A DNA stretch of 53,848 bases from Niabella drilacis. GTDB lineage: Bacteria; Bacteroidota; Bacteroidia; Chitinophagales; Chitinophagaceae. Position 1 is the stretch's first letter. Each line of letters begins with the position of its first letter. The position numbers were made by a program, and so were the translations under genes. Under the pieces are notes generated by a model that was given only the letters and a program-made list of their open reading frames with translations, was not told the DNA's origin and ran no database searches. Below, in pieces: positions 1,799 through 30,451 of this stretch. The stretch covers positions 1 to 53,848 of the forward strand of contig NZ_FMZO01000026.1 in the NCBI RefSeq assembly GCF_900101395.1, written 5' to 3'.

Positions 1799-1981
1799 TT
1801 ACTTACAATTTCCTGATTTTGCGTTTGCATCGTAATAAGTACAGGGAGATTGAGTACATTCATCTTTACATGGGGGTGGGGCGCTACCACTGTCACTGCC
1901 TTCAATCACCCTTTTCAGTTGCGCTCTTGTGAGAACCTGTGCGCCCTCAACGTTTTGAAGGGATAATTTTAATTTTTTCAT
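1799..1981 (-). CDS. GG-type leader cysteine-rich precursor peptide 1
   Basis: A small peptide of about 60 residues. The leader (KKLKLSLQNVEGAQVLTRAQ then LKRVIEG) matches the four other precursors in the window, and the core is short with 4 cysteines (PPC, DEC, SPC, GNC). The leader ends in IEG rather than GG, so cleavage by the C39 exporter may be weaker or shifted. The start is ATG at 1981, with a second ATG directly before it at 1984; a TTG further upstream is unlikely. It lies downstream of the winged-helix gene 2110-2442 and carries the CTGCAGTACGAA-type 5' leader (2021-2032) shared with precursors 3 and 5. Confidence 0.75.
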   Translation of the reverse strand: MKKLKLSLQNVEGAQVLTRAQLKRVIEGSDSGSAPPPCKDECTQSPCTYYDANAKSGNCK

Positions 1982-2061
1982 CATTCCCAATTTTTAACGT
2001 TTTATAATAGCCCTCCCTCGTTCGTACTGCAGGTTAAATGAAGGAAAGCCTTTTCAACCAT

Positions 2062-2098
2062 CAAGGCTAAAACCGTTCGGGCTGCTATTTCTGGCCCG
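2062..2098 (-). promoter_or_regulatory. Precursor promoter with dyad, copy 1
   Basis: Minus strand: CGGGC-CA-GAAATAG-CA-GCCCG (2078-2098), then 15 bases after GAAATAG, TAGCCTTG (2062-2069), one mismatch from TAnnTTTG. The heptamer GAAATAG and the 15-base spacing are the same in all four well-preserved copies. It could be an operator or activator site at the -33 position, or an RNA hairpin. Confidence 0.55.
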
Positions 2099-2109
2099 GA
2101 AAAATTTCT

Positions 2110-2742: not shown

Positions 2743-4110
2743 TCAAAAGTTGTTTTTAAGAACGAGGGAATCAATGATTTTTTTTGTGTCTGTTGAGGAT
2801 GGTTTTGGCGCAAACTGCCGGATCACTTTAAAATCTTTATCAATAATTATGTACCTGGGCAATTCTTCAACAAAATAGTCTTTTAGATTCAGGCGATTGG
2901 TGTTCCATTGGTTTCCCTTCAGGCCCATTGATGTTATATACGATTGCCACTTTTTTATATCCTCGTCTATCGATAAAGAAATAAAGGCAACATCATTATT
3001 GTCAGCATATTCCTGCTTAAGGCGCTCAAAGTTGGGCAGTTCTGCTAAACAGGGGCCGCACCAGGTGGCCCATAAATCTATATAAATTACACGACCCTTA
3101 TAATTTTCAATAGACACCGTCATATTATCAGCATCAATGGCCCTGAATATTTTCGCTTTTTGTTCGCCTTCAAATTGAAGCAGTTTTTGCTCAAACACAT
3201 TTTGAAGAACATCTTTATATTTCGGATTTTTAATACGATCTATTGCAGGCGCGAGGGTTTTCACCGATTCTGTATTTGACGTATGTTTTAACTGGTCGCT
3301 AATATTTTTTGCGAACAGCCAGTCCTCAACCGGAATCGCAGCTGTTTTTGTATTGGGCGTGGAGTAGTTTCTTATTACTTTTAAAATGTTCCGGTATACC
3401 GGAAGAACCAGTAATGATGCGTCGTAAAATCCAGCCGCGTATTTTTTTAATAAAGGGGGTGCTAAGCGGTCGTATTCTGCCAGGTATGCTTTTAGAGAAT
3501 CTTTTGGTATTACATCTTCATAGTAAAGCTGCATATAATACAGGCTATTAATAATGTCGGATTTTATCCTGCCCAGCTCATAGTTTTTAAAAACGGGGCT
3601 GATATTTTTACAGGACCGCAGTGTTTTCTCTCGTTCATCAGCGCATAACAGAATATTTTTCCAGTTAGATATAAACCTGCCGCTGATACCCGCTCCGGCG
3701 TTGATAAAGGAACCTGCTTTTGGGAATGGGGTGTCTTTTAAATAAGAATTTGCCGCTGAGCCTTTCCCCGAAAACCTGGCTGATTTGGGATAATTTCTGT
3801 CTAAAAAAACACGCATACTGTCTCCAGGCTCAAGATACAGCATATTCCTGCCTATCCTGAAGTAGGAGGCTGTTTCAAGTGGCAGCACAATCTTAAAATG
3901 ATTATTTGAGTCAATCAAAAATTGAAAAGCAACATCGGAAAGCATCAATTCTCCGATATCTGAAATATTTTCGATGGATGTTGTTTTTGAAAAATTGATT
4001 CCGATACCCTCCAGTATTACGGAACCAGGGTTGTATTCCCGGTTTTGCAACCAGGCGCTTTTAGGGATTAAAGAAAAAAACAGGAAAATAAAAAGAACGC
4101 GAAAAAGCAT
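2743..4110 (-). CDS. TlpA-like thioredoxin protein (CGPC), 455 residues
   Basis: An exported protein with a signal peptide (about 1-20), a long N-terminal half of about 310 residues typical of Bacteroidota TlpA-like proteins, and a C-terminal thioredoxin domain with WATWCGPC near residue 350 and the cis-Pro region EELPRYIIID. It is a likely envelope thiol-disulfide oxidoreductase or disulfide reductase. It is the last of three consecutive TlpA-like genes (6668 down to 2743) read in one direction. Its final 94 bases are duplicated exactly at 104-197, which shows recent recombination at this site. Its paralogue at 4290-5361 is frameshifted, so this gene may be one of the working copies. Confidence 0.88.
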   Translation of the reverse strand: MLFRVLFIFLFFSLIPKSAWLQNREYNPGSVILEGIGINFSKTTSIENISDIGELMLSDVAFQFLIDSNNHFKIVLPLETASYFRIGRNMLYLEPGDSMRVFLDRNYPKSARFSGKGSAANSYLKDTPFPKAGSFINAGAGISGRFISNWKNILLCADEREKTLRSCKNISPVFKNYELGRIKSDIINSLYYMQLYYEDVIPKDSLKAYLAEYDRLAPPLLKKYAAGFYDASLLVLPVYRNILKVIRNYSTPNTKTAAIPVEDWLFAKNISDQLKHTSNTESVKTLAPAIDRIKNPKYKDVLQNVFEQKLLQFEGEQKAKIFRAIDADNMTVSIENYKGRVIYIDLWATWCGPCLAELPNFERLKQEYADNNDVAFISLSIDEDIKKWQSYITSMGLKGNQWNTNRLNLKDYFVEELPRYIIIDKDFKVIRQFAPKPSSTDTKKIIDSLVLKNNF

Positions 4111-4289: not shown

Positions 4290-5361
4290 CTATTTTTGCG
4301 GGTATAAAATTTTTTCTAAATATTTTTCCAGGTCTGTTTCGTATAAATCCTTTGCGATTATTATACCATCGGCGTCAACAAGAAAATTTTGCGGAAGTTT
4401 GGCAACCCTATAAAGAAGGGCAACAGGGCTTTCCATGCCCTTTAGGTCGGAAAGCTGTGTCCATGCCAATCCATCGCTTTTAATGGCTTTAATCCAGTCC
4501 TCTTTTTTTGAGTATTCGTCCAAAGAAATACTAACAATTGAGAATCCTTTATTCTTATACTTTTTATATACATTAACTAAGTTTTTGTTTTCCCGCCTGC
4601 ACGGTCTACACCAGGAAGCCCAAAAATCAATTAATAAATATTTCTGCTTGATATCTCTTAAAGAAACTGGATTACCTAAGACGTTATTTAGGGTAAAATT
4701 GGGTGCTTTGCCGCCCACCCCAAATCGTAATGAAGCTATTTTTTTTTTCCACTTTTTTACCTAGTATCGATTTTTTATCTGCGGGTAATAAAAGATGAAA
4801 TAGTGTATCAATCTTATCGATATCTTCCTCTTTAACGTTAACGGGCAACCTCCTGAGGTAGTCAGAAATTAAAAATAGCTTTAGATTGGAGTTGGGATTG
4901 CTGATGAGGTATTGGTAGTAAAAAGTTGCGAGTTTGTACGCTTCTTTATTGATTTCACCTTTCCAGTATGCTGCACTGTCTACATTTTTTAGCGCCTCTT
5001 GCTCAGACCGTTTTTTATAAAGTAATGATAACGCCTGGTGAAACGGCCGATCTAATTCGTCTACTATGGTAAGCATATCTTCTTCGCGCAAATTGTTTAT
5101 ATCATGAGGATTTGTTGCGTACAATGTAAGTAAGGTGGTTGTTGCTATCTTCTTCGAAAATTCAAACTTATGGTTTGTAACCAAAGAGCTGTCAATCCCG
5201 CCTTCTGTGTCGGCATATATTGCATATATATACCGGGGTGATGTTAATAGATTTGAAACTTCTCCACTGATTGTTAAGGATGATGCCGTTTGCTTTAACT
5301 GATTTGTTTGGCAAAGCGTTGAAACAGGGGTCAGGAAGAAAAGTATAAGAACGTATTTCAT
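4290..5361 (-). pseudogene. TlpA-like thioredoxin gene split by a frameshift in an A10 tract
   Basis: The first part (5361 to about 4740) encodes a signal peptide and a DUF4369-like N-terminal region. The second part (about 4740 to 4290) encodes a complete thioredoxin domain with WASWCRPC. The two frames meet at a run of ten A on the minus strand (4739-4748). With nine A the reading continues as KKVEKKIASLRFGVGGKAPN, which is the expected entry into a TlpA domain. The break may be a true mutation, phase variation, corrected transcriptional slippage, or a sequencing error. As read, the first frame stops about 25 codons later, without the CxxC domain. It lies between two intact TlpA-like genes. 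Confidence 0.75.
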
Positions 5362-5516: not shown

Positions 5517-6668
5517 TTAGTCGGACAGAAATGATTTTTTATGTTTAGAAATAAAAAGATTTCGGCTTTTTAGAAAATCAGTCAATGCTTCCAATGAGAG
5601 GTTGGAGTCGATTATTTCCCCTTCTGAAGTAACAAGGTAATTCTGCGGGATCGCATTTAAATTATATTGAGTTTTTACAAGCCTGGTTTTAAAATTTTTA
5701 TCGATGAAGTTTTTAATAAAAATGCGGTCCTCCTTTGACGCCATTTCCCAGTTTTTTATAGCATCGTCAATGCTCACCAATACTATATCAAATTTTGAAG
5801 TGTCCAGATCCGGATAGATCTGCTGTAGCTGTGCTATCGACTTTCTACATGGGCCACACCAGCTTGCCCAAAAATCAACCAGGGTATATGGCTTCTTTTT
5901 ATAAATCGATTGAAGGTCCGTTGTCCTGTTCCCGGTTGAAAGAAGCTCTGCAGTGGGAAGCGTTTGCCCGATCATTAATTTCTTGTAATTCGTAATTGTA
6001 GTTAAAAGCTCCTTTCCCAGCTGTGTCCGCATCAGCGTATCTGTAAAAATCAGGGAACATTCCTCCAGTAATTTTGTGGACATGTATAATTCCTGTTTTA
6101 ACAGCTTAAATAGCACGAAATAGGAATTGTTGTGATTTTTGACAATTTCCAGTATATTTTGCTCATATTCCCGGTAAGATGCATAAAAAGAGCCGCCTCC
6201 GTCAACAGGCGAAAAGTCGTATTTTTTTTTCATGCCGGACATCTGTGGATTGTCAGTAATGAGGGCTGGTGGTGCAAATAGCAGCTCCTTATGTTTTGCC
6301 ATAAAATCGTTTTCGCCGCCGGTAACCGGGCTTCGTGCGGTTGGGTAATTGACGGTAATCTGAACCAGGTCCAGCGTGGCCAAAAAAGCTCCGATTCTTG
6401 TAAGAACGCTGTCTTTACGATCTTTCAGCAACAGTATACACCAGCGGGGCTCGGTTGCTGTTATTTTTAATAAATAGGATTGGAAATTCCGGGCGCCCTT
6501 TTCGCTGGCAAGCGCTTTGTCGCTATAAAAGTCTATGATTTCCAGGTTATACATTTGTTCAATACCACCCGGCAACTGCAGTGTTACACTAACCGGGCAA
6601 ACATGCGTTTGCGCGGTTAGGTATGTAACAGAAAGCATGCAAAAAAACAAACAGAAAGTCTTACGCAT
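5517..6668 (-). CDS. TlpA-like thioredoxin protein (CGPC), 383 residues
   Basis: It has a signal peptide (about 1-20), an N-terminal DUF4369-like region and a C-terminal thioredoxin fold with WASWCGPC near residue 272, followed by IVLVSIDD and the cis-Pro stretch LNAIPQNYLV. It is a predicted envelope thiol-disulfide oxidoreductase. It starts 21 bases after the glycosyltransferase-like gene 6690-8213 and is probably co-transcribed with it, so it belongs to the precursor-2 cassette that starts at 12406. It ends 155 bases before the frameshifted paralogue. Confidence 0.88.
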   Translation of the reverse strand: MRKTFCLFFCMLSVTYLTAQTHVCPVSVTLQLPGGIEQMYNLEIIDFYSDKALASEKGARNFQSYLLKITATEPRWCILLLKDRKDSVLTRIGAFLATLDLVQITVNYPTARSPVTGGENDFMAKHKELLFAPPALITDNPQMSGMKKKYDFSPVDGGGSFYASYREYEQNILEIVKNHNNSYFVLFKLLKQELYMSTKLLEECSLIFTDTLMRTQLGKELLTTITNYKKLMIGQTLPTAELLSTGNRTTDLQSIYKKKPYTLVDFWASWCGPCRKSIAQLQQIYPDLDTSKFDIVLVSIDDAIKNWEMASKEDRIFIKNFIDKNFKTRLVKTQYNLNAIPQNYLVTSEGEIIDSNLSLEALTDFLKSRNLFISKHKKSFLSD

Positions 6669-6689: not shown

Positions 6690-8213
6690 CTATAAGGAAA
6701 GATAAATTATTTTATTTGTTACCAGGATCTCAAGCTTTAGCTCCAGCAATTTTTTAACAGAACCAGGATCGTTACCCGCATCGGGGAAGGCCTGGCTGAT
6801 CTTATCAACAAGCGTGGAAAAGCTGCATCCCTGCGAGGCAAGCAGGACCATATTTGCACAGAGCTCATCCAGAACAAATGTCCTGTGCCCTTTGAAGAAC
6901 AACCCGGGTACAATAGCGGTAATGATATCCTTTTCATAGGAGGACCGGAACTGAATCGTATTTCCCGTAATTTGAATACTGGTCCAATCGTAGCAGCCAT
7001 CAATGATTTCTAAAAAAGGATTGGTGTAAACCAATGCGGCTTGTTTCCGGCTTTCAGGAAGTGTAAAAAAAAGCATGCCGGATATGGATGCGGCTTCCTG
7101 CTTATGCAACAGCGCCGCATCAATTTTGTTGAATTGTAAGATGACCCGTTTGAGCGTACACTCATACCGGTAAAGGCTTTTTAAAAGTGAATTTTTGGAC
7201 CGGGCCACCGCTTTTTTTAAATCTTTGCTGGATAGGGTATTTATTTTCCCGGTTATAGCATTCAGGAGCTGAACCGTTTTTGTAAAGGCCACCGGCCCGT
7301 TTTTTTTTGACGGAGGCCTGTTTGCTATTTCCTGGATCTTGTTGGGAAAATAGTAATGTGTTTTTCTGAACAGGGCTGTTATTTTTAAAAAGGTCTCCGG
7401 GTAATGATGGTAAAGCAGGTCGCATACCTGGTTGCAGATATTTTGGTTGCGCTTGTGGGGCCCTATAAAATGAAGATAATTGATCCTGGGCAGCATTGCA
7501 AAGTTGGCAACATCGGCTATCCCGTACCCGTTGTCCGGGAACTGTTTCTCAAAATAACAGTTCACTTCAAGGTTCATTTTCTTTGACAGGGAATAGAAAA
7601 GAACCTGTTCAAAAATGATATTAAAGTTCGTATTTAAGGGGTTCGCGGTATTCCTTTTTATGATCGTTGCTGCTTCAGAAAAATAGGTTCTGAAAAAAGA
7701 CAGGTTTGTACCTCCTAAAATTCCTGCATTGTATGCGTTTACATGGGTTGTATACAGATCGGTTCTTAAATATTCCGGGTAAAAAAAAGCATCGGATCTG
7801 TAAGGAGAAAAAAGGTTGTTGTAGTAAGCGGTGCCGGTTTCGGGGTTCTGAGCAATTAAGGGGGATGTCAACAGCTTTTTCCGGAACGGTTTCCAGAGCA
7901 CCACATCCCCGTCAACATGGATAAACGGCTTTTCCTGGCGGGCATAGGTGAGCAGCTTGGGATAGGCCCATAGGTCCGGCGCGCAATCCAGGTTGTCGTA
8001 ATCCGTAATTATTTTTTTATAAGGCAGGTCCAAAGTATCTGAGAGGATTGCGGCCCCGTGTTTGTCGGTATACAGCTCCAGTTCTTTATAAAATTTATTT
8101 AACTGGAGGCTGCTTAATGCCCAGGCCATCAGGTGGTGTTGCGGCGAAACCCAGCCGAAAGGATCTTCCAGCAGGTTTTTTTTATGGGTCCATAGTGTCT
8201 GGCAGATAGTCAT
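6690..8213 (-). CDS. DUF6734-like glycosyltransferase fused to a PqqD-like C-terminal domain
   Basis: A 507-residue protein without a signal peptide. The N-terminal 300 residues resemble the DUF6734 family: a glycosyltransferase-like fold with a DxD motif in FIHVDGDVVLWKPF (about 95-108) and conserved HFIGPHK. The C-terminal 80 residues (TFVLDELCANMVLLASQGCS ... LLELKLEILVTNKIIYL) have the pattern of PqqD/RRE domains: a beta strand, then a three-helix bundle ending in a short strand. RRE domains bind leader peptides of ribosomally made peptides. I infer that this enzyme docks on a precursor leader and glycosylates the core. It is 3 bases from the surface-protein gene 8217-10355, so the two are translationally close. 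The RRE call rests on pattern only. Confidence 0.7.
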   Translation of the reverse strand: MTICQTLWTHKKNLLEDPFGWVSPQHHLMAWALSSLQLNKFYKELELYTDKHGAAILSDTLDLPYKKIITDYDNLDCAPDLWAYPKLLTYARQEKPFIHVDGDVVLWKPFRKKLLTSPLIAQNPETGTAYYNNLFSPYRSDAFFYPEYLRTDLYTTHVNAYNAGILGGTNLSFFRTYFSEAATIIKRNTANPLNTNFNIIFEQVLFYSLSKKMNLEVNCYFEKQFPDNGYGIADVANFAMLPRINYLHFIGPHKRNQNICNQVCDLLYHHYPETFLKITALFRKTHYYFPNKIQEIANRPPSKKNGPVAFTKTVQLLNAITGKINTLSSKDLKKAVARSKNSLLKSLYRYECTLKRVILQFNKIDAALLHKQEAASISGMLFFTLPESRKQAALVYTNPFLEIIDGCYDWTSIQITGNTIQFRSSYEKDIITAIVPGLFFKGHRTFVLDELCANMVLLASQGCSFSTLVDKISQAFPDAGNDPGSVKKLLELKLEILVTNKIIYLSL

Positions 8214-8216
8214 GGT

Positions 8217-10355
8217 TTATTTATTAGCTTCGATGATGATCTCTTTTTCCTGGTGCAGCAGATCTCCGTTTTCGGCAATACCCTCTACAATAATTTTGTA
8301 GTTGCCCGGGAGGTCACTGCTGTAAAAATCAAGCGTGGCGCTGCCGGGTACGGGTAAAAAGGGACGCCAGCAGAGGGTAGATAAGTAGTGGAGCGATTCC
8401 TGTTCTTTTATGTCCTTTTCCTCCATCCCGGTAAACAGGCGGGCAGTGTTTACACGCTCTATGTTGTTATCTGCACAGCCCTGGTATATAATATTTCCAC
8501 CAGCGGATCTATATATCTTGCCCTTTACAGGCAGGGTATTTCCCTCGTCACCAATATGAGCCGGGCAGTTCAGTATATTGTTTATACATACGAAATCTCC
8601 GCAGTTATTGCCAAAAAGGGCATCGGGGCGTGCAAGCGGCTTTGTGGCCCGGACAGTGACCATCCTCATCGTTTTTGCTTCAAAGGAGTCCTTGAACACC
8701 AGGTAATTGCCGGTTAGGGCCTCCTGGTATGGACGGGCTGCGGGCAACCCCGGTTGCTGCAGGTAGTTCATGGGTTCCTGCATCGGGTTGGTCATGATAA
8801 CAGCATAGCGAATGAGCCCGATCCCTTCCATTGCTCTTTTATTAATGTTCCCGGCTGCGGCGGTAAATACGCTGCCTTCCGGGGTTACCAGTTGTGTGGG
8901 AGCGGGAAAGAACCGGCCGCTGCTGTCTGTGGTTATAAAGTTTTTTAGGGTATCCCGGAGAAGGAGTACCATCAATTGTTTTTCGACCTCCACGCCACCC
9001 CGGGCCATTACGATGCTGCCGGACACGGTAGGTTTATGGAGGGGAGGCGCAACCGTATTTGCCGGTGTCCCGGCATCGGCTGCTTGTTCCAGGGTATTGC
9101 TCAGTAAGCTGCTGCTGCTATAAATGGTTGCCGATTGGTAGGGATCATTCAGGGGCTGCGTATAATAGTAGGCGGGTAATAGCAGGCGGTTATGGTTTTC
9201 GAGGCGCGTGGTGTTAACACACCAGGCAGTAAGAATGGCTTTTAAGGGCTGGCCCTGCTCGTTTCCCGCATTGATTTTTACGGTAATTTTTTCGCGGGTT
9301 TGGAACCGGTCTTTTGTTGTTTGAAGGGTTATTGTGCTGCGGTTGTTATAGTGGGCAAAAAAGGGTTTCTGGTCGAGTAAGGTCCCGGTTTCATTAAAAA
9401 GGGAAAGGATATAAGTACCTTTTTTAAACGACCCCAGTGGGAGGGATATTTTTTTGTGGCCTGTTATATAGATGGGATCCGATCGTTCCTGTTCTGTACT
9501 CAGCAGGTTCCTGTAAGCCAGCACCACTTTTTGGGGTTGGGTGGTGGTGATGGTGGCTTCCAGGGAATCATTGTTAATAGTATGGGCCAGCAGGAGGTTT
9601 GCCGGCTGGTGGGTGGGGATAGTCTTCTGCGGGCCTGTTGGAGCAGCACTGCCGTGTATTGTTTTTTTTAGGGGGAGCCATAGGGTAAAGGGTTTTGATT
9701 GCCCGTTGGCGGTGGTAACGGTATAGAGTACGGGCAGGGAGGTATCTGGTTGCCGGAGGGGTATGATGAGCGTAGCTCTTCCTGTAATATCCAGTTTTTG
9801 AGTGTTGGGTTTTTGGCCTGGGCGGTGGTAAGTAATGGCGGCTTTTTTATCATTGATGAGTACTCCTTCAGCAGCGGTGGCCTGCATGGATATGCGGATG
9901 GTATCGGATATATGGAGGCTGTCTTCTATATGAAAGGAGAGGTGGAAGGGGGGCTGTTCTGTGGTTTTTATTGTTAAGCGTTTACGGAAACTGAAGCGGG
10001 GTTTTCCGGAGGGATCCAGGAGGTTGAGCGCTGCCACAAGCTCGTAATTACCGGGCTGCAGCTCCTGCGGAAGGGTAAGCGTTCCGGGGCAGCAGCCCTG
10101 CTGCATCAGGTAGTTTTGGCTGAGGAGGAACCCGGTCGTGTCCTGCCGGATGAGTGCAACGGCCATGATGTCGGGTTGCAGTGTATCGGGTAATGGTTCC
10201 TGCGGCAGAAAATACCCGCTGAACCAGATGGCTTCTCCGGGGGTGTAAATGGTTTTATCCGTAGCTACATACAGGGCGCCCCCATTTGAGGAGGGGGCCT
10301 GGGCATTCAAAATTGCCCGGATAAAAAACAGCAGCAGTAACCCTTTTCTTTTCAA
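8217..10355 (-). CDS. MG2-domain surface protein of the peptide locus
   Basis: A 712-residue exported protein with a signal peptide (about 1-19). Residues 25-135 (LYVATDKTIYTPGEAIWFSG) are the classic opening of an MG2 macroglobulin-type domain, followed by further beta-sandwich repeats. A cysteine pair lies at about 88-89, with further cysteines near the C-terminus (GDFVCINNILNCP). In Bacteroidota such MG2-like proteins are predicted to sit at the outer membrane near TonB receptors; their exact role is unknown. It lies 41 bases after the carboxypeptidase-like gene 10397-11605 and appears to be a passenger of cassette 2. The codon use and higher GC differ somewhat from the AT-rich TlpA genes around it. 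Confidence 0.7.
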   Translation of the reverse strand: MKRKGLLLLFFIRAILNAQAPSSNGGALYVATDKTIYTPGEAIWFSGYFLPQEPLPDTLQPDIMAVALIRQDTTGFLLSQNYLMQQGCCPGTLTLPQELQPGNYELVAALNLLDPSGKPRFSFRKRLTIKTTEQPPFHLSFHIEDSLHISDTIRISMQATAAEGVLINDKKAAITYHRPGQKPNTQKLDITGRATLIIPLRQPDTSLPVLYTVTTANGQSKPFTLWLPLKKTIHGSAAPTGPQKTIPTHQPANLLLAHTINNDSLEATITTTQPQKVVLAYRNLLSTEQERSDPIYITGHKKISLPLGSFKKGTYILSLFNETGTLLDQKPFFAHYNNRSTITLQTTKDRFQTREKITVKINAGNEQGQPLKAILTAWCVNTTRLENHNRLLLPAYYYTQPLNDPYQSATIYSSSSLLSNTLEQAADAGTPANTVAPPLHKPTVSGSIVMARGGVEVEKQLMVLLLRDTLKNFITTDSSGRFFPAPTQLVTPEGSVFTAAAGNINKRAMEGIGLIRYAVIMTNPMQEPMNYLQQPGLPAARPYQEALTGNYLVFKDSFEAKTMRMVTVRATKPLARPDALFGNNCGDFVCINNILNCPAHIGDEGNTLPVKGKIYRSAGGNIIYQGCADNNIERVNTARLFTGMEEKDIKEQESLHYLSTLCWRPFLPVPGSATLDFYSSDLPGNYKIIVEGIAENGDLLHQEKEIIIEANK

Positions 10356-17279: not shown

Positions 17280-17281
17280 CG

Positions 17282-18674: not shown

Positions 18675-18684
18675 TGCTGTGTTT

Positions 18685-19506: not shown

Positions 19507-19606
19507 TGGGTTTAAAGATTTTGACCGGAGAAATAAGCGGCTATAAGATGGTATTATTAGCTTTTTTCCTGATCAAAAGTTAGTGTATTTTAGTTTACAG
19601 ATTTCT

Positions 19607-20929: not shown

Positions 20930-21016
20930 GAATAGTCTGTTATTTCATTTTTGTATTGTTATGCGATTTATTCAGAATAAACTTACCTTGTTTCGAAATG
21001 ATAGGAAGGCTTTGAT

Positions 21017-21751: not shown

Positions 21752-21876
21752 AGTCAATGGTACTTCAAGCATTTTTACAGAGTTTTCGTAAAGTGTCCTG
21801 TTTTTATGAGTCCGGGTTCTAAAATCTTTTTAATTAACTGCTCATTTTTTGAGTAACAAACTATTAATTGAATCTG

Positions 21877-22242
21877 TCAGTTGGGACAATTGTGAACCTG
21901 GTACATTGTAGTTGTTTCCTTAGCTTTCACCTCGATTGAGCCCCGGGAAAGAAAAAAGTAAAGATCTCCGCGAAGAGACCGGTTGAGGTCATATATGGAA
22001 AGTATGGCTTTGCTCGTGCCATTAATTTTTCCTGAAAAATGGGAATGCTCTTTTTTTGATAGAAATGTATCTGTAACGGAGTTTTCTATACTATTGGTAT
22101 ATTGTAAAACAACAGTGGATTTTTCAGCAACAGATCCTGCTAGATAAAAATCATCGTTAACAATTGTTAGAAGGGCTGATTTTGAAACCAAACCAATAAT
22201 GGCGAAGAAAAATATAAGGGAACCAATTTTAATTTTTCTCAT
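21877..22242 (-). CDS. Orphan DUF4369-like protein
   Basis: 121 residues with a hydrophobic N-terminus (IGSLIFFFAIIGLVSKSAL) and one DUF4369-like beta domain (DFYLAGSVAEKSTVVLQYTN ... HFSGKINGTSKAILSIYD). It ends there, without the thioredoxin half of its paralogues. It may be a truncated TlpA-like gene that still makes the domain. About 200 bases are roughly 85% identical to the chimeric gene at 30415, which supports exchange between the two sites. It lies 74 bases after precursor 4. Confidence 0.55.
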   Translation of the reverse strand: MRKIKIGSLIFFFAIIGLVSKSALLTIVNDDFYLAGSVAEKSTVVLQYTNSIENSVTDTFLSKKEHSHFSGKINGTSKAILSIYDLNRSLRGDLYFFLSRGSIEVKAKETTTMYQVHNCPN

Positions 22243-22559: not shown

Positions 22560-24056
22560 CTACAATTTTGTTTCAAAAGCCTTATTTAGCTCAGTATAAA
22601 ACAGATTTCCAGTTGAGGGATGTGGAAGGTTGTTGTTTGAAATCTCCCCTTTATTATTAACTACAATAAACCTGGGTATTGTAATTTCCCTGAAGTTCCC
22701 ATATATGCGGCTTTGAATATCCTCTTTGAGTTTAAAACTGATCATTACATGAGAGCCCTCCAATGGATAATGCTTTATAAAATTGAGCATTTTTTCCCTT
22801 GTTTCGGTATTGTCAAAGGAAATATAAAGCCGCTCAACATTATTTATCTTACAAAAACGATCAATTTCGGCATTGAACTGCATTTCTTCAACACAAGGGC
22901 CACACCAAGTAGCCCATAGGTCTATTAAAACAGCCTTTCCTTTGAAGAACTTTTTAACGAGACTATCCAAATTGTCTATTGAAGAAAGTTGTAATAGTTT
23001 GACTTGTAAAGTATCGGTAGTATTCCTTGGTTTCTTTTCATAGAAAAAAGGAAAGAGATATTTTTTGTATGCCGATTGAGGGAATATCGCTAAAAATGTG
23101 TTTAGATCCTTTTGGGTATAACTCATTGGAAACAATTTTTTATATCGCAGTAAAGTCATAGCCCAAAAACCTTCTTTTACATCGTTAGGGGCTTTCATAC
23201 ACATGGAAAGGTTTCCATTTAAAAAATATGATTCCCCTCCTATCACTAAATGTTTTTGGGGAGGGTCGTTAACGTCAATATTATAATTATCCTCTTTAAG
23301 TAGTAAAAATGAGTATTTTGTAGATGCTGCAAGGCGCCCATATATGTAACCTTTAACGAGTTGCGGATCATTGTCAAAAAGTGGCGATAGCTGATTAAAA
23401 AGTGCTTTTTTTTCTGATGAAGAATATTGCCTGGATGTTTTCGCCTGATATAAAAAATGCATAAGCAAATCTTGCTTGATGGCACGTTCAATAAAATTAA
23501 AAAAAGGTGCCGTGATTTTTCCTTTTTTATACAGTTTTTCAAAATCATTTACCTGACTGTTTAGCACCGACTCAAAAAGTTTTAGATCTTTGCTTTGATA
23601 TATATCAGTTTTTTCTAAAGAAGTATAAAAATCTTCATGTTTACGGGAGGGATAATAATTGTATTTATTAAAAAGGGTATTCCCGTCACCATTCCTACCT
23701 GTAAAAGTAATGACGCCGTCGTCTCTTAGCCCGCTACTGTCTCGAACAATAGATTTTTTTATATCAAACGAAATGGTGTCTCCTGAAAAAGCCAAAAAAT
23801 AGAACGGAAAATAACCAACACGAATGCAAAAAAACATGGGCCCCTTTGGTAAAGTGAGCTTTTTTTGAAACGAATTATTTGAATCTAATAAAATAATATT
23901 CGTTGAATCAAAAATATCGGAATTATAAAAATTGTTTATTGGAGTATATAAGACTATCTTATTCTTTAAACTATCTTCTATTGTGCCATTAACGAATACC
24001 TGGCCCGAGCTCTGATTGTAAAAGAGCAACAATAAAAAAAGAATCCAAGTCCTCAT
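22560..24056 (-). CDS. TlpA-like thioredoxin protein (CGPC), 498 residues
   Basis: It has a signal peptide (about 1-18), a long N-terminal region with a DUF4369-like start (VFVNGTIEDSLKNKIVLYTP), and a C-terminal thioredoxin domain with WATWCGPC near residue 385, then LYISFDNTE and cis-Pro EITIPRFIVV. It is a predicted envelope thiol-disulfide oxidoreductase. It stands between precursor 5 (24179-24460) and precursor 4 (22317-22556) on one strand and could serve both. Base composition is AT-rich compared with the exporter genes. Confidence 0.88.
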   Translation of the reverse strand: MRTWILFLLLLFYNQSSGQVFVNGTIEDSLKNKIVLYTPINNFYNSDIFDSTNIILLDSNNSFQKKLTLPKGPMFFCIRVGYFPFYFLAFSGDTISFDIKKSIVRDSSGLRDDGVITFTGRNGDGNTLFNKYNYYPSRKHEDFYTSLEKTDIYQSKDLKLFESVLNSQVNDFEKLYKKGKITAPFFNFIERAIKQDLLMHFLYQAKTSRQYSSSEKKALFNQLSPLFDNDPQLVKGYIYGRLAASTKYSFLLLKEDNYNIDVNDPPQKHLVIGGESYFLNGNLSMCMKAPNDVKEGFWAMTLLRYKKLFPMSYTQKDLNTFLAIFPQSAYKKYLFPFFYEKKPRNTTDTLQVKLLQLSSIDNLDSLVKKFFKGKAVLIDLWATWCGPCVEEMQFNAEIDRFCKINNVERLYISFDNTETREKMLNFIKHYPLEGSHVMISFKLKEDIQSRIYGNFREITIPRFIVVNNKGEISNNNLPHPSTGNLFYTELNKAFETKL

Positions 24057-24178
24057 GAGTTATCAATATTAAAGTACTGAAATATCTAAACAGTAAGTGC
24101 AAAGTTTCTCTTCATATTTGCGTAACGAAAAGCTAACTAAGCACTTAAAGTTAGATAAACTTATACGGGAATGGCTGT

Positions 24179-24460
24179 TTAAGCCGGACATTCTGCGCCG
24201 GGGTTGCTACAGTTTACCCATCCGCAACTCGAACTACCCGAACTGCAATTGGATGTAAAATTGTCAATAGAACTTTGAGATGGCATGTTATTCCAGTGCA
24301 TCATGCCCGCACCGCCGACACAACTACACCGATACTTCATGTTACCACTTCCCCCGCTTGCGCCACTTCCCCCATCTCCCCCCAGTATTTTTTTTAACTG
24401 ATCTCTCGTAAGGACCTGTGTTCCTTCAATGTTTTGAAAGTTCAATTTCAGTTTTTTCAT
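24179..24460 (-). CDS. GG-leader cysteine-rich precursor peptide 5
   Basis: 93 residues. The leader KKLKLNFQNIEGTQVLTRDQ then LKKILGG ends at residue 28. The core begins with a Gly/Ser repeat (DGGSGASGGSGN) and has 6 cysteines (YRCSC, NC, SSC, NC, EC), also Met- and Ser-rich. The leader is nearly identical to that of precursor 3. The 5' leader carries the CTGCAGTACGAA block at 24502-24513 and the promoter/dyad at 24542-24577. It lies downstream of the winged-helix gene 24590-24922. Confidence 0.82.
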   Translation of the reverse strand: MKKLKLNFQNIEGTQVLTRDQLKKILGGDGGSGASGGSGNMKYRCSCVGGAGMMHWNNMPSQSSIDNFTSNCSSGSSSCGWVNCSNPGAECPA

Positions 24461-24541
24461 TGTTTAAAATTTTTAATACTTTAATAATCGCTTCCTCCTC
24501 ATTCGTACTGCAGATAGAATAAAGGAAAGCATTTGAACCAT

Positions 24542-24577
24542 CAAAGCTAAAATTCCCCGGGCCGCTATTTCTGGCCC
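24542..24577 (-). promoter_or_regulatory. Precursor promoter with dyad, copy 4
   Basis: Minus strand: GGGCC-A-GAAATAG-C-GGCCC (24559-24577), then 15 bases after GAAATAG, TAGCTTTG (24542-24549), a full match to TAnnTTTG. It lies between the winged-helix gene stop and precursor 5. Confidence 0.6.
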
Positions 24578-24589
24578 CGAAAAATTTCT

Positions 24590-24922
24590 TCATATTTCTT
24601 TACAAAGTACAAAAATGGCTTTTTCGGAAAAGCAAAGCTCTTCGGGTTTACCGATTTTGCAGGTGTCCTCTCTTGCCAGTACCTCTCCGTATTTCATAAA
24701 CCGGGAAATACAAAACTCGCCATCTTCCGTATAATAATATGTTTTGCGCTGCCGGTCGTAAATAATGGTTGCCCCCAGCTCCCGCATTTGGCATAAGATC
24801 TCTTTTATGGCGCTCTTTGACAATTTCATTTTCCGTGCAAAGGTTTCCAGGTCGCCGGTGGCTTTTCTTTTAATTAAATAGTTGGCATATTCCAGCCGCT
24901 TGATGGCTTTTACTAATGACAT
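24590..24922 (-). CDS. Small winged-helix protein of the peptide cassette, copy 3
   Basis: 110 residues starting with ATG at 24922 (MSLVKAI). The helix-turn-helix LETFARKMKLSKSAIKEIL and the wing YDRQRKTYYY are intact, and the C-terminus reads KIGKPEELCFSEKAIFVLCK. Unlike the other copies it has no promoter of its own: it starts 10 bases after the VKOR-thioredoxin gene ends, so it is read from that operon. This ties the regulator to the shared maturation and export genes. Confidence 0.82.
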   Translation of the reverse strand: MSLVKAIKRLEYANYLIKRKATGDLETFARKMKLSKSAIKEILCQMRELGATIIYDRQRKTYYYTEDGEFCISRFMKYGEVLAREDTCKIGKPEELCFSEKAIFVLCKEI

Positions 24923-24932
24923 AGGGTTTCTA

Positions 24933-26612
24933 TTATACCGCTAAAAAATAATTCAGATCAGCTACTGTGTATAACTCCGGGAGTTGGTAAAATTTCGCAT
25001 TTTCTTCTGCAGTATTCACACACAGGAAAAATGTGGGTGTAAAAGCTACCTGGACTGCATCACACCATTCCCGCATCGCTTTTATTTTACGGTCCTGCAT
25101 TTTTAGCTCCCCGTTTAAAGGATAATTGGCGGCAAAAGCCGCATAATCTTTTACCGGCGCATTATACCAATCGTCTAATGCTTTTTTGGTAAGTAGTTGA
25201 TCATTTTTTGAATCAACGGCCAGTAAATGGCTTACCGGGGCTTTTTTAATGTCTTTTTCATCCTCCGTAGCGGTAAAGACCACCTGCAGGCAGAGGTCCT
25301 CATTATTCTCTGCAAGCGCTTCCATTACAGGATGTGCTTTTGCACAAGGTCCGCAATAAGGGTTGCATACTTTTACGAGCTTAAACCGGGCTTTAGCGTT
25401 ACCCAGGGTAATGCCCAGGTCTGTAGCCGGCATCTCAATAGACTTTTGTTTGGCCAGTAAGGCCTCAAAGATCTGTGGGTTGTGTTTCAGGCGCTGGAGT
25501 TCCGTGGTTTTTTTCCGCAGTGCTTTTGCTTTTTTAAGAGCCGGTATTAGCAATTGAATAGCGATAAATACGGTTCCGAAGATGGCCGCTGTCGAAAACG
25601 CTGCAGCGCCGGAAATTTCAGACAGTGGCAACAAACCGTGAAAACTCCCCGAAAGGGCGGTTACAAACTGTAACAGGAGCAGGCCCTGGATCAGCAGGCA
25701 GAGCAGGCACCACTGCCGGGCGATCTTCCATTGATAATAAATACTAAAACCGATATAGGGGAGTGCGAGCATATTGATCCAGCTGAGCAGCTCCAGGCTT
25801 ACCGGGTTGCGGATACCGGTAACCAGTAACAGGATCAGCATACCTGCGAAATAGGTAAAGCCAATGCTGCTCCAGCTTAACCCGAACAGGGTTGAAGCCC
25901 TGGAATTTAAAACGGCGGAACAGTTTACCTTTTTGCCGGCCTGGCAGATCTGCTTTAAGGCCGGGTTGTACTGGTCTACCTCAAACCATAAGAGCAGGGT
26001 GCTGACAACCGTGCCGGAAAGAGCGATGAGGGTGAAAACCACCGGTGCAATAACCGCATAGGAGCGGGTGGTAATAACCGCCAGCAGGCAGATAGCCAGG
26101 GTGAGCACCGGCAAACTCAGCAGCAGCAGGTGGGAAAGCCTATTTTTTTGTTTTTCTTCCTGCTGATGTTTTGCGTACTCCTTTTCTATGGAACTTTTTT
26201 CTGCTTCCACGGCCAGGATGGTTCCCAGGTACAGGGCATCAAAGGCTTCGGGAGAAAGCGTTTCTGTTTTTTGGGAGCCGGGATCATAAAGCCCGATGGC
26301 GTTTGCAGAAAAACGGGTAACAACGGAAAATACGGTTCCGCCCCGGGGGCTTTTGATATGTGCCATAAAAGGCGTTCGGATCTCCGTTTGGGCAAGGATC
26401 TGCTCCCGCTGCATGTTAAGCGCTCCACTGGCCACATTATAGGAAATACCTAATACATCAGCAATAGCAGCCAGGCTGGGATAATCCGGATGCTCCTCTA
26501 ATTCTTTCTGTAAATGGGTACGGGTAAACGGTACGTTTAAGCAGGTTAATAGATAAGCTGCTGCGGTTTCGCAGGGTTGCATAGGTTGCAGCAACCGGGT
26601 TAAAAAGGACAT
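24933..26612 (-). CDS. VKOR-thioredoxin fusion with degenerate C39 domain
   Basis: About 559 residues from the ATG at 26612. Residues about 1-130 look like a C39 peptidase domain (EEHPDYPSLAAIADVLGISY, later YDPGSQ) but lack the catalytic His: GGTVFSVV stands where HFVV is expected. Residues about 160-350 are a polytopic VKOR domain with redox Cys223, Cys231 and the pair Cys302/Cys305 (WCLLCL). The C-terminus is a thioredoxin-like domain with CGPC at 420-423. VKOR fusions make disulfides in envelope proteins by passing electrons to quinone. The degenerate C39 part may bind GG leaders. It is divergent from the exporter gene at 26813. Confidence 0.85.
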   Translation of the reverse strand: MSFLTRLLQPMQPCETAAAYLLTCLNVPFTRTHLQKELEEHPDYPSLAAIADVLGISYNVASGALNMQREQILAQTEIRTPFMAHIKSPRGGTVFSVVTRFSANAIGLYDPGSQKTETLSPEAFDALYLGTILAVEAEKSSIEKEYAKHQQEEKQKNRLSHLLLLSLPVLTLAICLLAVITTRSYAVIAPVVFTLIALSGTVVSTLLLWFEVDQYNPALKQICQAGKKVNCSAVLNSRASTLFGLSWSSIGFTYFAGMLILLLVTGIRNPVSLELLSWINMLALPYIGFSIYYQWKIARQWCLLCLLIQGLLLLQFVTALSGSFHGLLPLSEISGAAAFSTAAIFGTVFIAIQLLIPALKKAKALRKKTTELQRLKHNPQIFEALLAKQKSIEMPATDLGITLGNAKARFKLVKVCNPYCGPCAKAHPVMEALAENNEDLCLQVVFTATEDEKDIKKAPVSHLLAVDSKNDQLLTKKALDDWYNAPVKDYAAFAANYPLNGELKMQDRKIKAMREWCDAVQVAFTPTFFLCVNTAEENAKFYQLPELYTVADLNYFLAV

Positions 26613-26694
26613 TGGCAATCATTTTAGGTTAAAATAAATGTTCTGAGATTGAGCAGTTATAAAAAAATCCCGACTATTATCTATCCTAAAAATA
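26613..26694 (-). promoter_or_regulatory. Shared promoter/leader element, copy 4 (VKOR gene)
   Basis: Minus strand: TATTTTTA (26687-26694), ATAACTGC, and the end TAACCTAAAATGATTGCCA directly before the ATG. The leader is the same kind as before the winged-helix genes, although the downstream gene is different. It lies in the 200-base gap to the divergent exporter gene. Confidence 0.5.
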
Positions 26695-26812
26695 ATGAAT
26701 ATAAATCACAAAAAAAACATATTTTTTGATTGTGTAATGTAATATATCATGTGTCTTTTTTTCCCAAATGAAGAAAAATAAGTAGGTTTGAAATAGCCAA
26801 AAACAAACGCTG

Positions 26813-29056
26813 GTGAAACTATTTGACAAACGCTTTGCCTTCTATAAGCAGCTCAATGCCATGGACTGTGGCCCTACCTGTTTGCGCATGGTTGCCCGTT
26901 CTTACGGCAAACATTATAATGCGGATACATTACGCCAGATGGCGGGTTTTAGCAAGGCCGGGGTATCCATGCTCGGTATCAGTGATACAGCCGAAAAGAT
27001 CGGCTTCAGGACCCGGGGGGTAAAGCTTACCTTGAAACAGCTACAGGGAGTGCCGGTGCCGGCGATCCTGCACTGGAACCATAATCATTTTGTGGTACTA
27101 ACAGCTATAAGGCGACGCAGCGTTATGGTGGCTGACCCGGGGAAGGGATTTATAACCTATACGGCTGCCGAATTCTTAAAACACTGGGCCGCTGCAAAAG
27201 ATGAGGAAGGCAATGATACAGGCGTTGCTTTATTATTAGAACCCACCCCGGTGTTCTATGAATCTGAGGGGGAAAAAGAGCACAAGCTTAGCTGGTCGCT
27301 GGTTTCAAAGTATTTACTCACGGCCAGGTGGCAACTGGCCCAGGTGTTTATGGCCTTTATCATTACCTCTTTGCTAACCCTTATTTTCCCTTTTCTTACA
27401 CAAAGCGTGGTGGATGTGGGCATCAATGCGCAGAACCTGCAATATGTGGTAGTGGTATTAATTGCCCAGACCATGCTTTCTTTTAGCCAGACCTTTGTAG
27501 GCTTTATCCGGAGCCGTATTATGCTGCGTATTTCCAATATCCTCAACATACAGATCTTATCCGATTTCTGGATCAAGCTCACAAGGTTGCCGGTTTCGTA
27601 TTTTGATATGCATCACACCGGTGACACCCTGCAACGCATCGGTGATCATGGCAAGATCCAGGGTTTTCTTTTAGGCACGGCATTGTCTACTATTTTTTCT
27701 TTTTTCAATTTTATTATCTACGCTATAGTACTGATGATCTACAGTGTGGAGCTCTTCTTTGTATTTGGCATCGGCAGTATTATTTATTTTATATGGGTAC
27801 AGTTATTTTTAAGGATCCGGAGAAAACTGAACTATGAAAGCTTTCATCTTTCTGCAAAGGAAAATAATACCACATTGCAGATGATCCAGGGCATGCAGGA
27901 GATCCGCCTGAACAATGCCGAAAAGCAGAAACGCTGGGAGTGGGAAAATATACAGGCCAATGTATTTAAGCTGGGTTTTAAGAACCTGAACTACAGCCAG
28001 GTGCAATCTGCCGGGGCTACTTTTATCAGCAGCCTGCAGGGGATTGTCATCAGCTTTTTGGTGGCCCGGCTGGTCATTGATGGCAAGCTTACTTTTGGGG
28101 CCATGCTGGCCGTGCAATACGTGATCGGCCAGCTCAGCGGTCCCATACAGCAATGGGTGGGCTTTGTACAAAGCTTCCAGGATGCTAAAATAAGCATGGA
28201 ACGGCTGAACGAAATTCACCAGCTGGATGATGAAGAGGACCGGCAAAAAAGTTATATCAGTCAGCTGCCGGAAAATAAATCCATCGCCATCAACAATCTT
28301 TCTTTTACTTACCCGGGAGCCGGCAATGACCCGGTTTTGGAACATATAAACCTGGTCATCCCGGAGAACAAGGTTACCGCTATTGTGGGGGTGAGCGGCA
28401 GCGGCAAAACGACCCTGGTTAAATTGTTATTAAAGATATACGAGCAATATGAGGGCGATATAAGGGTGGGAGGCGGCCCCACAGCCTCCTCGGGGGAGGG
28501 GGAAAATAACGCAGGACTTAAATTTGGGTTCATCAGCCATCCTTACTGGCGCAGCGAATGTGGTGCCGTATTGCAGGATGGCTATATCTTTAATGATTCC
28601 ATTGCCCGGAATATTGCAGTGAGAGACGAGGAGATCGATTATAACCGGTTGCTCCAAAGTTGCCGTATCGCCAATATCCATTCTTTTATTGAGGGCCTGC
28701 CCAATGGTTATTATACCAAACTGGGGGCCGAAGGTACCGGCATAAGCCAGGGGCAGCGGCAACGGATCCTGATTGCCCGGGCCGTATATAAGAACCCTTC
28801 TTATTTGTTTTTTGATGAAGCGACCAACTCCCTGGATGCCAATAATGAAAAAGAGATCATCGAAAACCTGGGGCGGTTTTTTAAAGGCAGAACGGTGGTG
28901 GTAGTGGCGCATCGCCTGAGCACAGTGAAAAATGCGGATAAGATCGTAGTCCTGGACCGGGGTAAGATCGTTGAGGAAGGGACGCACCAGGAGCTTTCTG
29001 ATTTAAAAGGGAAATATTATGAACTGGTAAAGAACCAGCTGGAGCTGGGCAATTGA
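26813..29056 (+). CDS. C39-peptidase ABC exporter for GG-leader peptides
   Basis: 747 residues from a GTG start. The N-terminal C39 domain has Gln13, Cys19 (MDCGPTC), His92 (HNHFVVL) and Asp108 (ADPGKG), so the protease looks active. An ABC transmembrane part follows (about 165-450), then the ATPase with Walker A GVSGSGKTT, signature ISQGQRQR, Walker B YLFFDEAT and the switch His in VAHRLS. Such exporters cleave after the leader Gly-Gly while exporting. About 17-20 extra residues (GGGPTASSGEGENNAGLKFG) lie between Walker A and the Q-loop region QDGYIF, where relatives usually have a few residues. It is followed 27 bases later by the HlyD gene. Confidence 0.93.
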   Translation: MKLFDKRFAFYKQLNAMDCGPTCLRMVARSYGKHYNADTLRQMAGFSKAGVSMLGISDTAEKIGFRTRGVKLTLKQLQGVPVPAILHWNHNHFVVLTAIRRRSVMVADPGKGFITYTAAEFLKHWAAAKDEEGNDTGVALLLEPTPVFYESEGEKEHKLSWSLVSKYLLTARWQLAQVFMAFIITSLLTLIFPFLTQSVVDVGINAQNLQYVVVVLIAQTMLSFSQTFVGFIRSRIMLRISNILNIQILSDFWIKLTRLPVSYFDMHHTGDTLQRIGDHGKIQGFLLGTALSTIFSFFNFIIYAIVLMIYSVELFFVFGIGSIIYFIWVQLFLRIRRKLNYESFHLSAKENNTTLQMIQGMQEIRLNNAEKQKRWEWENIQANVFKLGFKNLNYSQVQSAGATFISSLQGIVISFLVARLVIDGKLTFGAMLAVQYVIGQLSGPIQQWVGFVQSFQDAKISMERLNEIHQLDDEEDRQKSYISQLPENKSIAINNLSFTYPGAGNDPVLEHINLVIPENKVTAIVGVSGSGKTTLVKLLLKIYEQYEGDIRVGGGPTASSGEGENNAGLKFGFISHPYWRSECGAVLQDGYIFNDSIARNIAVRDEEIDYNRLLQSCRIANIHSFIEGLPNGYYTKLGAEGTGISQGQRQRILIARAVYKNPSYLFFDEATNSLDANNEKEIIENLGRFFKGRTVVVVAHRLSTVKNADKIVVLDRGKIVEEGTHQELSDLKGKYYELVKNQLELGN

Positions 29057-29083
29057 TTACAGGTTTGTGATTTGATAGTTGAA

Positions 29084-30451
29084 ATGAGAAGCAACATGAA
29101 AAATATGCACAGGGACATTGTAGAACTCAGCCGGGCAGACCTGGAGACCCTTCCCCTTGGAGAGGACCAGGGTGAGGCTTTCCGGGAGCGCTCAGATATC
29201 GCCCAGGAGATCATCAGCCGCAGGCCGGATTTTTGGGAAAAATGGGCATTGATCGTTTTCCTGGTCCTGTTATTATTGCTTACCGCGGGTACCTGGTTTA
29301 TTAAGTACCCGGATATTATCGAAGCGGGTGCCGTGCTTACCGGCCAGAACGCACCCAAGGAAATTGTACCCAAACAAACCGGGAAGCTGACAGCGCTATT
29401 TGTTCAGAACAATGAACACGTAAAGCAGGGCCAGATACTGGGCTGGCTGGAGTCCAATGCCGACACCAAAGAAGTGATTGCGCTTTCCGCCAGGTTGGAC
29501 AGCAGCCTGAAAATGCTGGGTGGCGGACTGCCAGGTTCCATTGTCGGTTTATTTAATACACGTTTTAACAACCTGGGAGAACTGCAGGCCGGTTATCAAA
29601 CCTTTGTTACTGCATTGCAACAGTACAATGATTACCTGGTGAACGGGTTTTATTCCCGGAGAAAAGAACTGTTGAGCAGTGATATTGCATCGCTTCAGAA
29701 TATGAAAGAGAAGGTAACGCAGCAAAAAGAATTTACGACAAAAGACAATGAGCTGGCCCGGACAACCTTTGAAATGAACGAAAAGCTTTTTAGAGAAAAA
29801 GTGATCTCCGCAGAAGAATACCGCCAGGCGCAAAGCGCGCTTTTGAACAAACAGAAGTCCGACCCGCAAATGGAGATAAGCCTCATTACCCAGCAAAGCC
29901 AGATACGGGACAAGCAAAAAGAAATAGACCAGCTGAACCACGATATCCTGCAGCAACAGCAAACTTTTGAGCAGGTATTGCAAACCTTAAAAAGCAATGT
30001 GGATGAATGGCTGCGGCAATATACCCTGCAGGCTCCTGCCGGGGGAACGGTGGTGTTTGCACTGCCACTACAACAAAACCAGTATTTACAAGCCGGGAAA
30101 ATACTGGGTTATGTAAACCCGCCGGACAGCAAATATTATGCAGAGGTAAAATTGTCTCAAAGTAACTTCGGAAAAGTGGATACCGGTATGAAAGTGCAAT
30201 TGCGGTTCGACGCCTATCCCTACCAGGAAATGGGTTTTGTGCCCGGCATCTTAAATTATGTGTCCGCTATATCCATAGACAGTACCTTTTTGGGAACGGT
30301 GCAGCTGAACCAGGGATTGCTGACCAACCAGGAGAGAACGATCCAATACAAAAACGGTTTGAAGGCCCGGGCACTTATTATTACAAAAGACATGCGCCTG
30401 CTGGAGCGGCTCTATTATTCGATAGTTAAGTCTACCACTGTTAATAAGTAA
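29084..30451 (+). CDS. HlyD-type membrane fusion protein of the exporter
   Basis: About 455 residues from the ATG at 29084 (MRSNMKNMHRD). Residues about 50-70 form one transmembrane helix (ALIVFLVLLLLLTAG), followed by a barrel/lipoyl part (VPKQTGKLTALFVQNNEHVKQGQ), a long alpha-helical hairpin (about 150-330, coiled coil) and the second lipoyl half (LQAPAGGTVVFALPL). It links the inner-membrane exporter to the outer membrane. No TolC-type gene is in the window, so an outer membrane channel must be encoded elsewhere. It is in one operon with the exporter. Confidence 0.9.
   Translation: MRSNMKNMHRDIVELSRADLETLPLGEDQGEAFRERSDIAQEIISRRPDFWEKWALIVFLVLLLLLTAGTWFIKYPDIIEAGAVLTGQNAPKEIVPKQTGKLTALFVQNNEHVKQGQILGWLESNADTKEVIALSARLDSSLKMLGGGLPGSIVGLFNTRFNNLGELQAGYQTFVTALQQYNDYLVNGFYSRRKELLSSDIASLQNMKEKVTQQKEFTTKDNELARTTFEMNEKLFREKVISAEEYRQAQSALLNKQKSDPQMEISLITQQSQIRDKQKEIDQLNHDILQQQQTFEQVLQTLKSNVDEWLRQYTLQAPAGGTVVFALPLQQNQYLQAGKILGYVNPPDSKYYAEVKLSQSNFGKVDTGMKVQLRFDAYPYQEMGFVPGILNYVSAISIDSTFLGTVQLNQGLLTNQERTIQYKNGLKARALIITKDMRLLERLYYSIVKSTTVNK

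Follow-up and report, generated by a model that had tools for sequence, protein, structure and literature searches.

Putative winged-helix regulators with tails resembling an export leader in a peptide cassette array of Niabella drilacis

The contig NZ_FMZO01000026.1 of Niabella drilacis (C32; 53,848 bases within a 6.1-Mb genome; here called the window) carries an array of cassettes in which genes for small winged-helix (WH) proteins stand next to genes for cysteine-rich peptides with double-glycine (GG) leaders. Comparison of the WH family across Bacteroidota revealed that, in members encoded near C39 exporters or GG-leader peptides, the C-terminal tail often contains a segment resembling the export leader of the peptides, and that a palindrome lies at a fixed distance from the promoter box of the precursor genes. 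We propose that the WH protein regulates the peptide genes, carries a mimic of the export leader, docks with it on a C39-type domain and in this way couples expression to export, a reading to which we assign a probability of about one half.

The array comprises three intact WH genes (WH1, 2110 to 2448; WH2, 12074 to 12412; WH3, 24590 to 24922), five precursor genes and seven TlpA-like genes, one of the latter split, in agreement with the counts of a preliminary description of this DNA. All of them lie on the reverse strand, as do the tail segments, the palindromes, the WH remnant upstream of P3, VKOR-Trx with the promoter-like stretch before it, and the genes with glycosyltransferase and DUF6734 matches described below. 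In the repeating unit of WH gene, dyad and precursor that had been described, a precursor indeed follows each intact WH gene and a dyad precedes four of the five precursors, whereas P4 (22317 to 22556, 6-Cys core) has neither a WH gene nor a palindrome of its own and starts 3 nucleotides (nt) after a TlpA gene. The other precursors are P1 (1799 to 1990, likely ATG start near 1981), P2 (11673 to 11993), P3 (16187 to 16456) and P5 (24179 to 24460). The GG leader assigned to all five is present in four, the leader of P1 ending in EG. The window precursors share a leader around LTR.Q.K, with leucine at position -12 and isoleucine or valine at -4, followed by cores of 32 to 78 residues with 4, 10, 10, 6 and 6 Cys residues from P1 to P5. 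No NCBIfam model matched any of the five above its cut-off.

Among 23 distinct precursors from the window and from relatives of the Chitinophagaceae group, an even number of Cys residues after the leader (4 to 10) was found in all 22 cores with at least two Cys, these cores being partly non-independent, with three near-copies each in the loci L034 and L066. The sole precursor outside this count, in L067, is cut short and without Cys. Even Cys counts fit disulfides. Furthermore, a scan with the WH alignment and two short peptide patterns, with distant members beyond its reach, identified seven loci (Niabella, two Chitinophaga, a Parafilimonas metagenome-assembled genome [MAG] and three further MAGs), and in all seven a Cys-rich precursor with a GG leader directly follows the WH gene. 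Because the unit recurs in other genomes, the array is more than a chance arrangement. This recurrence of the pair, together with the even Cys counts, supports the earlier proposal of exported, disulfide-rich peptides made from repeated cassettes, including its expectation that the WH family and the peptides co-occur. Among 88 loosely picked peptides beside WH genes in other families, 47 had no Cys, 14 had one, 17 had two and 10 had at least three; these peptides are mostly Cys-poor, which argues that Cys richness belongs to the Chitinophagaceae clade.

The tails were compared in 129 distinct WH proteins, which were counted as associated if a C39 exporter lay less than 5 kb or a GG peptide less than 2.5 kb away on the same strand. 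The tail after the winged helix had a median length of 37 residues in associated and 12.5 in unassociated proteins, and the motif [ILVM]xGG occurred in 31 of 73 associated but only 2 of 56 unassociated tails (P = 1.3e-7); shuffled associated tails contained it on average 2.6 times and at most 9 times. The motif was first seen in the order-level loci (13/39 versus 1/29) and was found again in the later class- and phylum-level loci (18/34 versus 1/27, P = 2e-5). A combination of a hydrophobic residue at -12, an acidic one at -8 and I, L or V at -4 was present in 18 of 39 GG-bearing tails, compared with 20 of 2,617 GGs in long open reading frames (ORFs) of the same loci. Examples of this pattern are LDEQQLRQVSGG in L118 and ISKDEQKEISGG in L073, the latter tail adjoining a precursor with LSREEQKKIQGG. 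In L031 and L032, two loci of the Chitinophagaceae group, the tails include KVGG, one residue off the leader register.

In Chitinophagaceae, the tail segment mostly resembles VLTRExxxKI, the precursors having VLTREQLKKI, and the GG is replaced in the tail. We also used a profile of 104 precursor leaders without their GG columns, leaving out 32 WH proteins with too little tail. At a shuffle P < 0.05, the segment was detected in 14 of 17 tails of the Chitinophagaceae group, a set that includes near-copies and the three window proteins, in 25 of 49 other associated tails and in 3 of 31 unassociated ones. Within the window, L(-12) and I(-4) are kept and GG is absent: the segment is LTRNEAAKIGKP in the WH2 tail (12128 to 12163; shuffle P = 0.003), LAREDTCKIGKP in the WH3 tail (24644 to 24679; P = 0.013) and, weakest, LTREDACEIGKP in the WH1 tail (2164 to 2199; P = 0.066).

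The positions kept in the tails can be set beside those described for C39 domains. According to the accessible part of PMC6363468, these domains read leader positions -12, -8, -7 and -4, the residues at -4, -7 and -12 sit in a groove, and C39-like domains recruit substrate. Two candidate domains are encoded at one end of the array, where the shared machinery had been placed and where we also found it: a C39 peptidase-ABC exporter (26813 to 29056, forward strand), next to an HlyD-type adaptor (29072 to 30451, forward strand), and a VKOR-thioredoxin protein (VKOR-Trx, 24933 to 26618), which lies upstream of WH3 on the same strand and has an N-terminal C39-like domain without the catalytic His. 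Among nine such N termini, the catalytic His and the aligned Cys were absent in all nine, and a Cys occurred one column later in six. This domain may bind leaders at most. A literature search over titles and the beginnings of abstracts, with subscription journals mostly uncovered, found no report of a leader-bearing WH regulator or of a C39-VKOR-Trx fusion.

The second line of evidence concerns the palindrome, a putative operator located between WH gene and precursor. It was found before P1 (2078 to 2098), P2 (12046 to 12064), P3 (16555 to 16576) and P5 (24558 to 24579). The Bacteroidota -7 consensus is TAnnTTTG, and boxes of this type follow at 2062 to 2069 (P1, the imperfect TAGCCTTG), 12029 to 12036, 16539 to 16546 and 24542 to 24549. 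In all four cases, 19 nt separate the palindrome centre (2088, 12055, 16565 and 24568) from the first T of the box downstream (2069, 12036, 16546 and 24549), with the palindrome about where a -33 box would be. Half-sites vary among relatives (GGGGCA, CGATGCA, CGTGGCA, CGTTCC and CGTTTC), with the same spacing wherever a dyad was found. In the 6.1-Mb genome, the only convincing matches to the palindrome were the four of the window, three near-identical and one variant; the best match elsewhere had two mismatches, and a reversed control pattern gave 20 matches versus 10.

Taking all WH loci together, we had 62 segments upstream of precursors, of which 21 contain a perfect TAnnTTTG; the box nearest the start codon was used, and imperfect boxes were left out of the counts, choosing a box by its best 19-nt dyad being biased. 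The strongest dyad among 70 offsets was at exactly 19.0 nt in 16 of the 21 (100 shuffles: mean 0.43, maximum 2), and a dyad score of at least 13 at 19 nt was reached in 17 of 21 (100 shuffles: mean 0.14, maximum 2), counts of non-independent events since the loci are partly related. When the search instead covered the 150 nt preceding and the 420 nt following the WH stop codon, the palindrome was counted in 6 of 16 Chitinophagaceae, 11 of 58 other associated and 4 of 55 unassociated regions, a perfect box being present in only 8, 20 and 20 of them, respectively; the means at the 69 other offsets were 0.0, 0.09 and 0.19. The changing half-site, the kept symmetry and the fixed promoter spacing speak for a DNA operator of a dimer, and the palindrome is probably the operator of the WH protein. 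The four unassociated cases (L101, L150, L151 and L163) have no detected peptide or C39 neighbour, and their palindrome stands 19 nt before the -7 box of a neighbouring gene that does not resemble a leader peptide; the WH family thus looks like a set of local regulators.

Taken together, the locus would make several exported, disulfide-bonded leader peptides. Most cassettes would be switched by a WH dimer on the palindrome, which covers the peptide promoter around -33; palindrome, 19-nt spacing and recurrence are observed features, and the WH protein is the putative binder. It could act as an activator or as a repressor. Its C-terminal region carries what statistically resembles the export leader of the cargo, and this tail would be bound by the exporter's own C39 domain or, perhaps in this clade, by the C39-like part of VKOR-Trx. 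The WH protein would then be withdrawn or released according to whether exporters are free or occupied, and where a family has kept the GG, its C39 domain could also cut the tail; transcription would thereby track the capacity for export. The precursors themselves are predicted from their families to be cut after the leader and exported via C39-ABC and HlyD, disulfides being handled by VKOR-Trx and the TlpA proteins. A bolder version, which we put forward tentatively, is that across Bacteroidota WH regulators of peptide genes have acquired the leader of their cargo as a C-terminal tag, which makes the peptidase domain of the exporter the sensor: C39 would capture the regulator and thereby couple precursor transcription to the state of the exporter, the tag being cut in GG-keeping clades and uncuttable in Chitinophagaceae, where it possibly docks on the dead C39-like domain of VKOR-Trx.

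Several observations weigh against this proposal. The GG is replaced in the window, which makes tail cleavage there unlikely, and the strict GG motif is absent in 42 of 73 associated WH proteins. Among 51 WH proteins within 5 kb of a C39 gene, six have a tail shorter than 15 residues. Many loci are related, so the P values given for the tails overstate independence, and the precursors outside Chitinophagaceae were chosen by a loose pattern. As for the palindrome, 41 of the 62 segments lack a perfect -7 box and are uncounted, and the best dyad lies elsewhere in 5 of 21 (L030, L033, L100, L165 and P3 of the window), a dyad at 19 nt still being present weakly in P3 and L030 and strongly in L100. 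Since unassociated WH proteins can also have the palindrome, regulation does not need the tail. Finally, a permutation over 57 pooled pairs of WH protein and precursor seemed to indicate strongly that each tail copies the leader of its own locus, but within groups this was not significant (P = 0.11 for 13 loci of Chitinophagaceae and 0.20 for the remaining 42). The own-leader idea was dropped, and only a generic leader mimic is claimed.

The likeliest alternative is that the WH protein is an ordinary local regulator whose tail is a dimerisation helix or another part of the fold, the likeness to leaders reflecting convergent amphipathic helices. Many helices have hydrophobic residues spaced like -12/-7/-4, and the four unassociated proteins above have the palindrome without a leader-like tail, away from C39 loci. 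However, the tail is longer in loci with a C39 exporter or GG peptide, the GG is found chiefly there, and a dimerisation helix leaves both the GG and the acidic -8 residue unexplained. We regard this explanation as rather unlikely, though it deserves to be kept in view.

The palindrome could also act as RNA, as a hairpin that serves as attenuator or weak terminator between WH gene and precursor. Its stems of about 5 to 9 pairs, several followed by TTTTAG, and the pairing that is kept while half-sites vary would suit this, but the fixed 19-nt distance to the promoter box would not, nor would a near-identical palindrome in L126, which precedes another precursor some 4.5 kb away from the WH gene. 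A terminator scan of positions 24100 to 30800 did not return the palindrome, which its loop limit of 8 may exclude. An RNA role is improbable in our judgement.

A further explanation takes the WH protein as a precursor itself, with a folded leader domain and a C-terminal exported peptide, possibly a signal. A median of 22 residues follows the GG in 33 tails, and in Chitinophagaceae a Cys pair comes after the leader-like part. Yet one tail ends at the GG, another has a single residue after it, and the GG is absent in the window. In L143, moreover, the residues after the GG that are common to its relatives (FRPSLLDG) are the palindrome read in frame, so that their conservation need not serve a peptide; in the relative L177, a stop codon follows the GG directly and the palindrome is kept, leaving a tag without a core. 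Both cases favour the leader part, and not the following peptide, as the working unit, and we consider the precursor explanation quite improbable. They also weakened a reading of the tail as a peptide pheromone. The 3' end of the WH gene of L143 contains the putative precursor operator (10167 to 10191 of that locus), so that DNA and protein constraints overlap there. A redox-sensor reading of the Cys pair, which is invariant in eight aligned tails, was considered as well; L072 and L073 are without the pair. Least probable is a stand-alone RiPP recognition element (RRE)-like domain that binds leaders and hands precursors to enzymes or the exporter: RRE domains are winged helices and WH genes in Chitinophagaceae loci are nearly always close to precursors, but the families matched by the profiles are DNA-binding helix-turn-helix (HTH) ones, PqqD not being among the matches listed (25 of 62 families), and family members adjoin non-peptide genes and have the palindrome.

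The peptides themselves are close to known ones. Bacteroidetocins, proposed as class IIf, are Bacteroidetes GG-leader peptides with four Cys residues, encoded with an ABC exporter bearing a double-glycine peptidase domain and with a thiol oxidoreductase, as far as the accessible part of PMC6671954 describes them. Killing of Bacteroidales is a further trait of this group. The window locus shares the C39-type double-glycine leader (four of five precursors), the C39-ABC exporter and the thiol oxidoreductase. Its cores of 32 to 78 residues with 4 to 10 Cys differ from the bacteroidetocin core of about 42 residues and four Cys, in a comparison of features and not of the sequences directly, and it adds several cassettes, TlpA copies, VKOR-Trx with its C39-like domain, HlyD, glycosyltransferase-type genes and WH regulators. 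To judge from sequence, the window peptides would be a variant of disulfide-bonded GG-leader peptides such as the bacteroidetocins. Like the C39-type ABC exporters of PCAT/AMS systems (LahT in the accessible part of PMC6363468), the locus combines a C39 peptidase-ABC protein with double-glycine leaders; unlike what is described there, a leader-like segment is carried by a putative transcription regulator.

Regulators that bear an export signal have precedents in another type of secretion with another signal. FlgM and LcrQ, regulatory proteins that themselves bear a secretion signal, tie expression to export, and the coupling proposed here would be analogous. If the proposed docking is true, gene expression receives feedback from the exporter in a widespread route of bacteriocin export, by way of a regulator that wears the tag of its cargo, which in the bolder version of a leader-tagged regulator sensed by C39 would be new for this route. 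A family of HTH proteins without a name would also gain a role, and silent Bacteroidota peptide clusters would gain a handle, with predictable operator, regulator and precursor; the palindrome-plus-19 rule may allow the target gene of such a regulator to be predicted. What the window contributes is a form with several cassettes, rich in disulfides, in which VKOR-thioredoxin is fused to a C39-like domain.

Beyond the seven scan loci, a hidden Markov model (HMM) of the WH family matched in 17 of 147 genomes at family, 80 of 396 at order, 50 of 395 at class and 49 of 296 at phylum level. Many phylum-level matches are ORFs of over 300 amino acids, which we take to be WYL-type regulators; their HTH part is a winged helix of related kind that this profile also picks up, whereas the WH protein described here is stand-alone, without a sensor domain, and has a leader-like tail in peptide loci. 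Measured against the first row of their alignment, two of the window WH genes show 71% and 85% identity. HTH_11 was the commonest match: at E ≤ 1 it was found in 16 of the 22 members aligned, with a best E value of 5e-7. WH3 weakly matched WH_AprA and HTH_36 below the cut-off; no Pfam or NCBIfam family above its cut-off names the window WH proteins. A PDB sequence search with the WH profile gave eight matches up to E = 10, the best at 0.2.

The Chitinophagaceae group outside the window contig comprises 14 loci (L029 to L035, L066, L067 and L069 to L073; L068 repeats L033), of which 13 have a precursor, 8 VKOR-Trx, 8 a C39 exporter and 8 a TlpA-like gene, several contigs ending early. One of them, L070, belongs to the same genome as the window (contig C28) and contains a fourth WH gene, whose product has a leader-like tail, along with a 6-Cys precursor gene; within its 20-kb stretch, no exporter was detected. 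In L074 (contig C18), the same genome has C39-ABC and HlyD genes a second time, together with an additional partial match to C39, in a stretch without a WH gene.

The absence of standard RiPP enzymes noted in the preliminary description holds for the 20 window ORFs searched with Pfam, which gave no LanB/LanM/LanC, YcaO, radical SAM or ATP-grasp at E ≤ 0.05, but not for all relatives. A LanC-like protein is encoded in L029 (13717 to 14730, by Pfam) and in L066 (14492 to 15607, by eye only), and in L098, of another family, a tailless WH protein of the same HMM family adjoins an ATP-grasp gene. The WH protein is thus not specific to disulfide peptides. Four window genes among the cassettes with glycosyltransferase matches (17907 to 21772; GT2-like below the cut-off, GT92/GT2_4, GT25 and GT2), along with such matches in relatives, make glycosylation of the peptides plausible.

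The TlpA-like genes are located at 529 to 1671 (with DUF4369), 2743 to 4110, 4290 to 5361 (broken into two frames), 5517 to 6668, 12646 to 14211, 15430 to 16098 (small) and 22560 to 24056. A gene for a DUF6734 protein (6690 to 8213) lies among the cassettes, and upstream of the P3 cassette (16695 to 17812) are genes for a muramidase and for a small protein that weakly matches OmpW. A promoter-like stretch with 5' leader precedes VKOR-Trx (26592 to 26694) and is common to WH1 and a WH remnant, and partly to WH2 and a remnant at 30415. In the loci of 13 relatives, the best matches listed to this 5' element of WH and VKOR genes had 4 to 5 mismatches in 18, with none in one locus, and Rfam gave no RNA element at gathering scores in window positions 1 to 31500.

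The array also bears traces of rearrangement. A fourth WH gene upstream of P3 was apparently lost by a deletion between two AAAAGCCATT copies at the start and end of the gene, leaving a collapsed remnant with approximate limits of 16585 to 16632. A 94-nt direct repeat is identical at 104 to 197 and 2743 to 2836; the contig thus has a copy of a TlpA 3' end near its start, and the repeat array is probably where the assembly breaks. Further remnants at 30415 to 30762 and 21877 to 22242 are signs of recombination: in the former, which has the shared promoter stretch repeated in front of it, a VKOR-like start is fused to a segment that recurs at 21999 to 22212 (82% identity over 214 nt).

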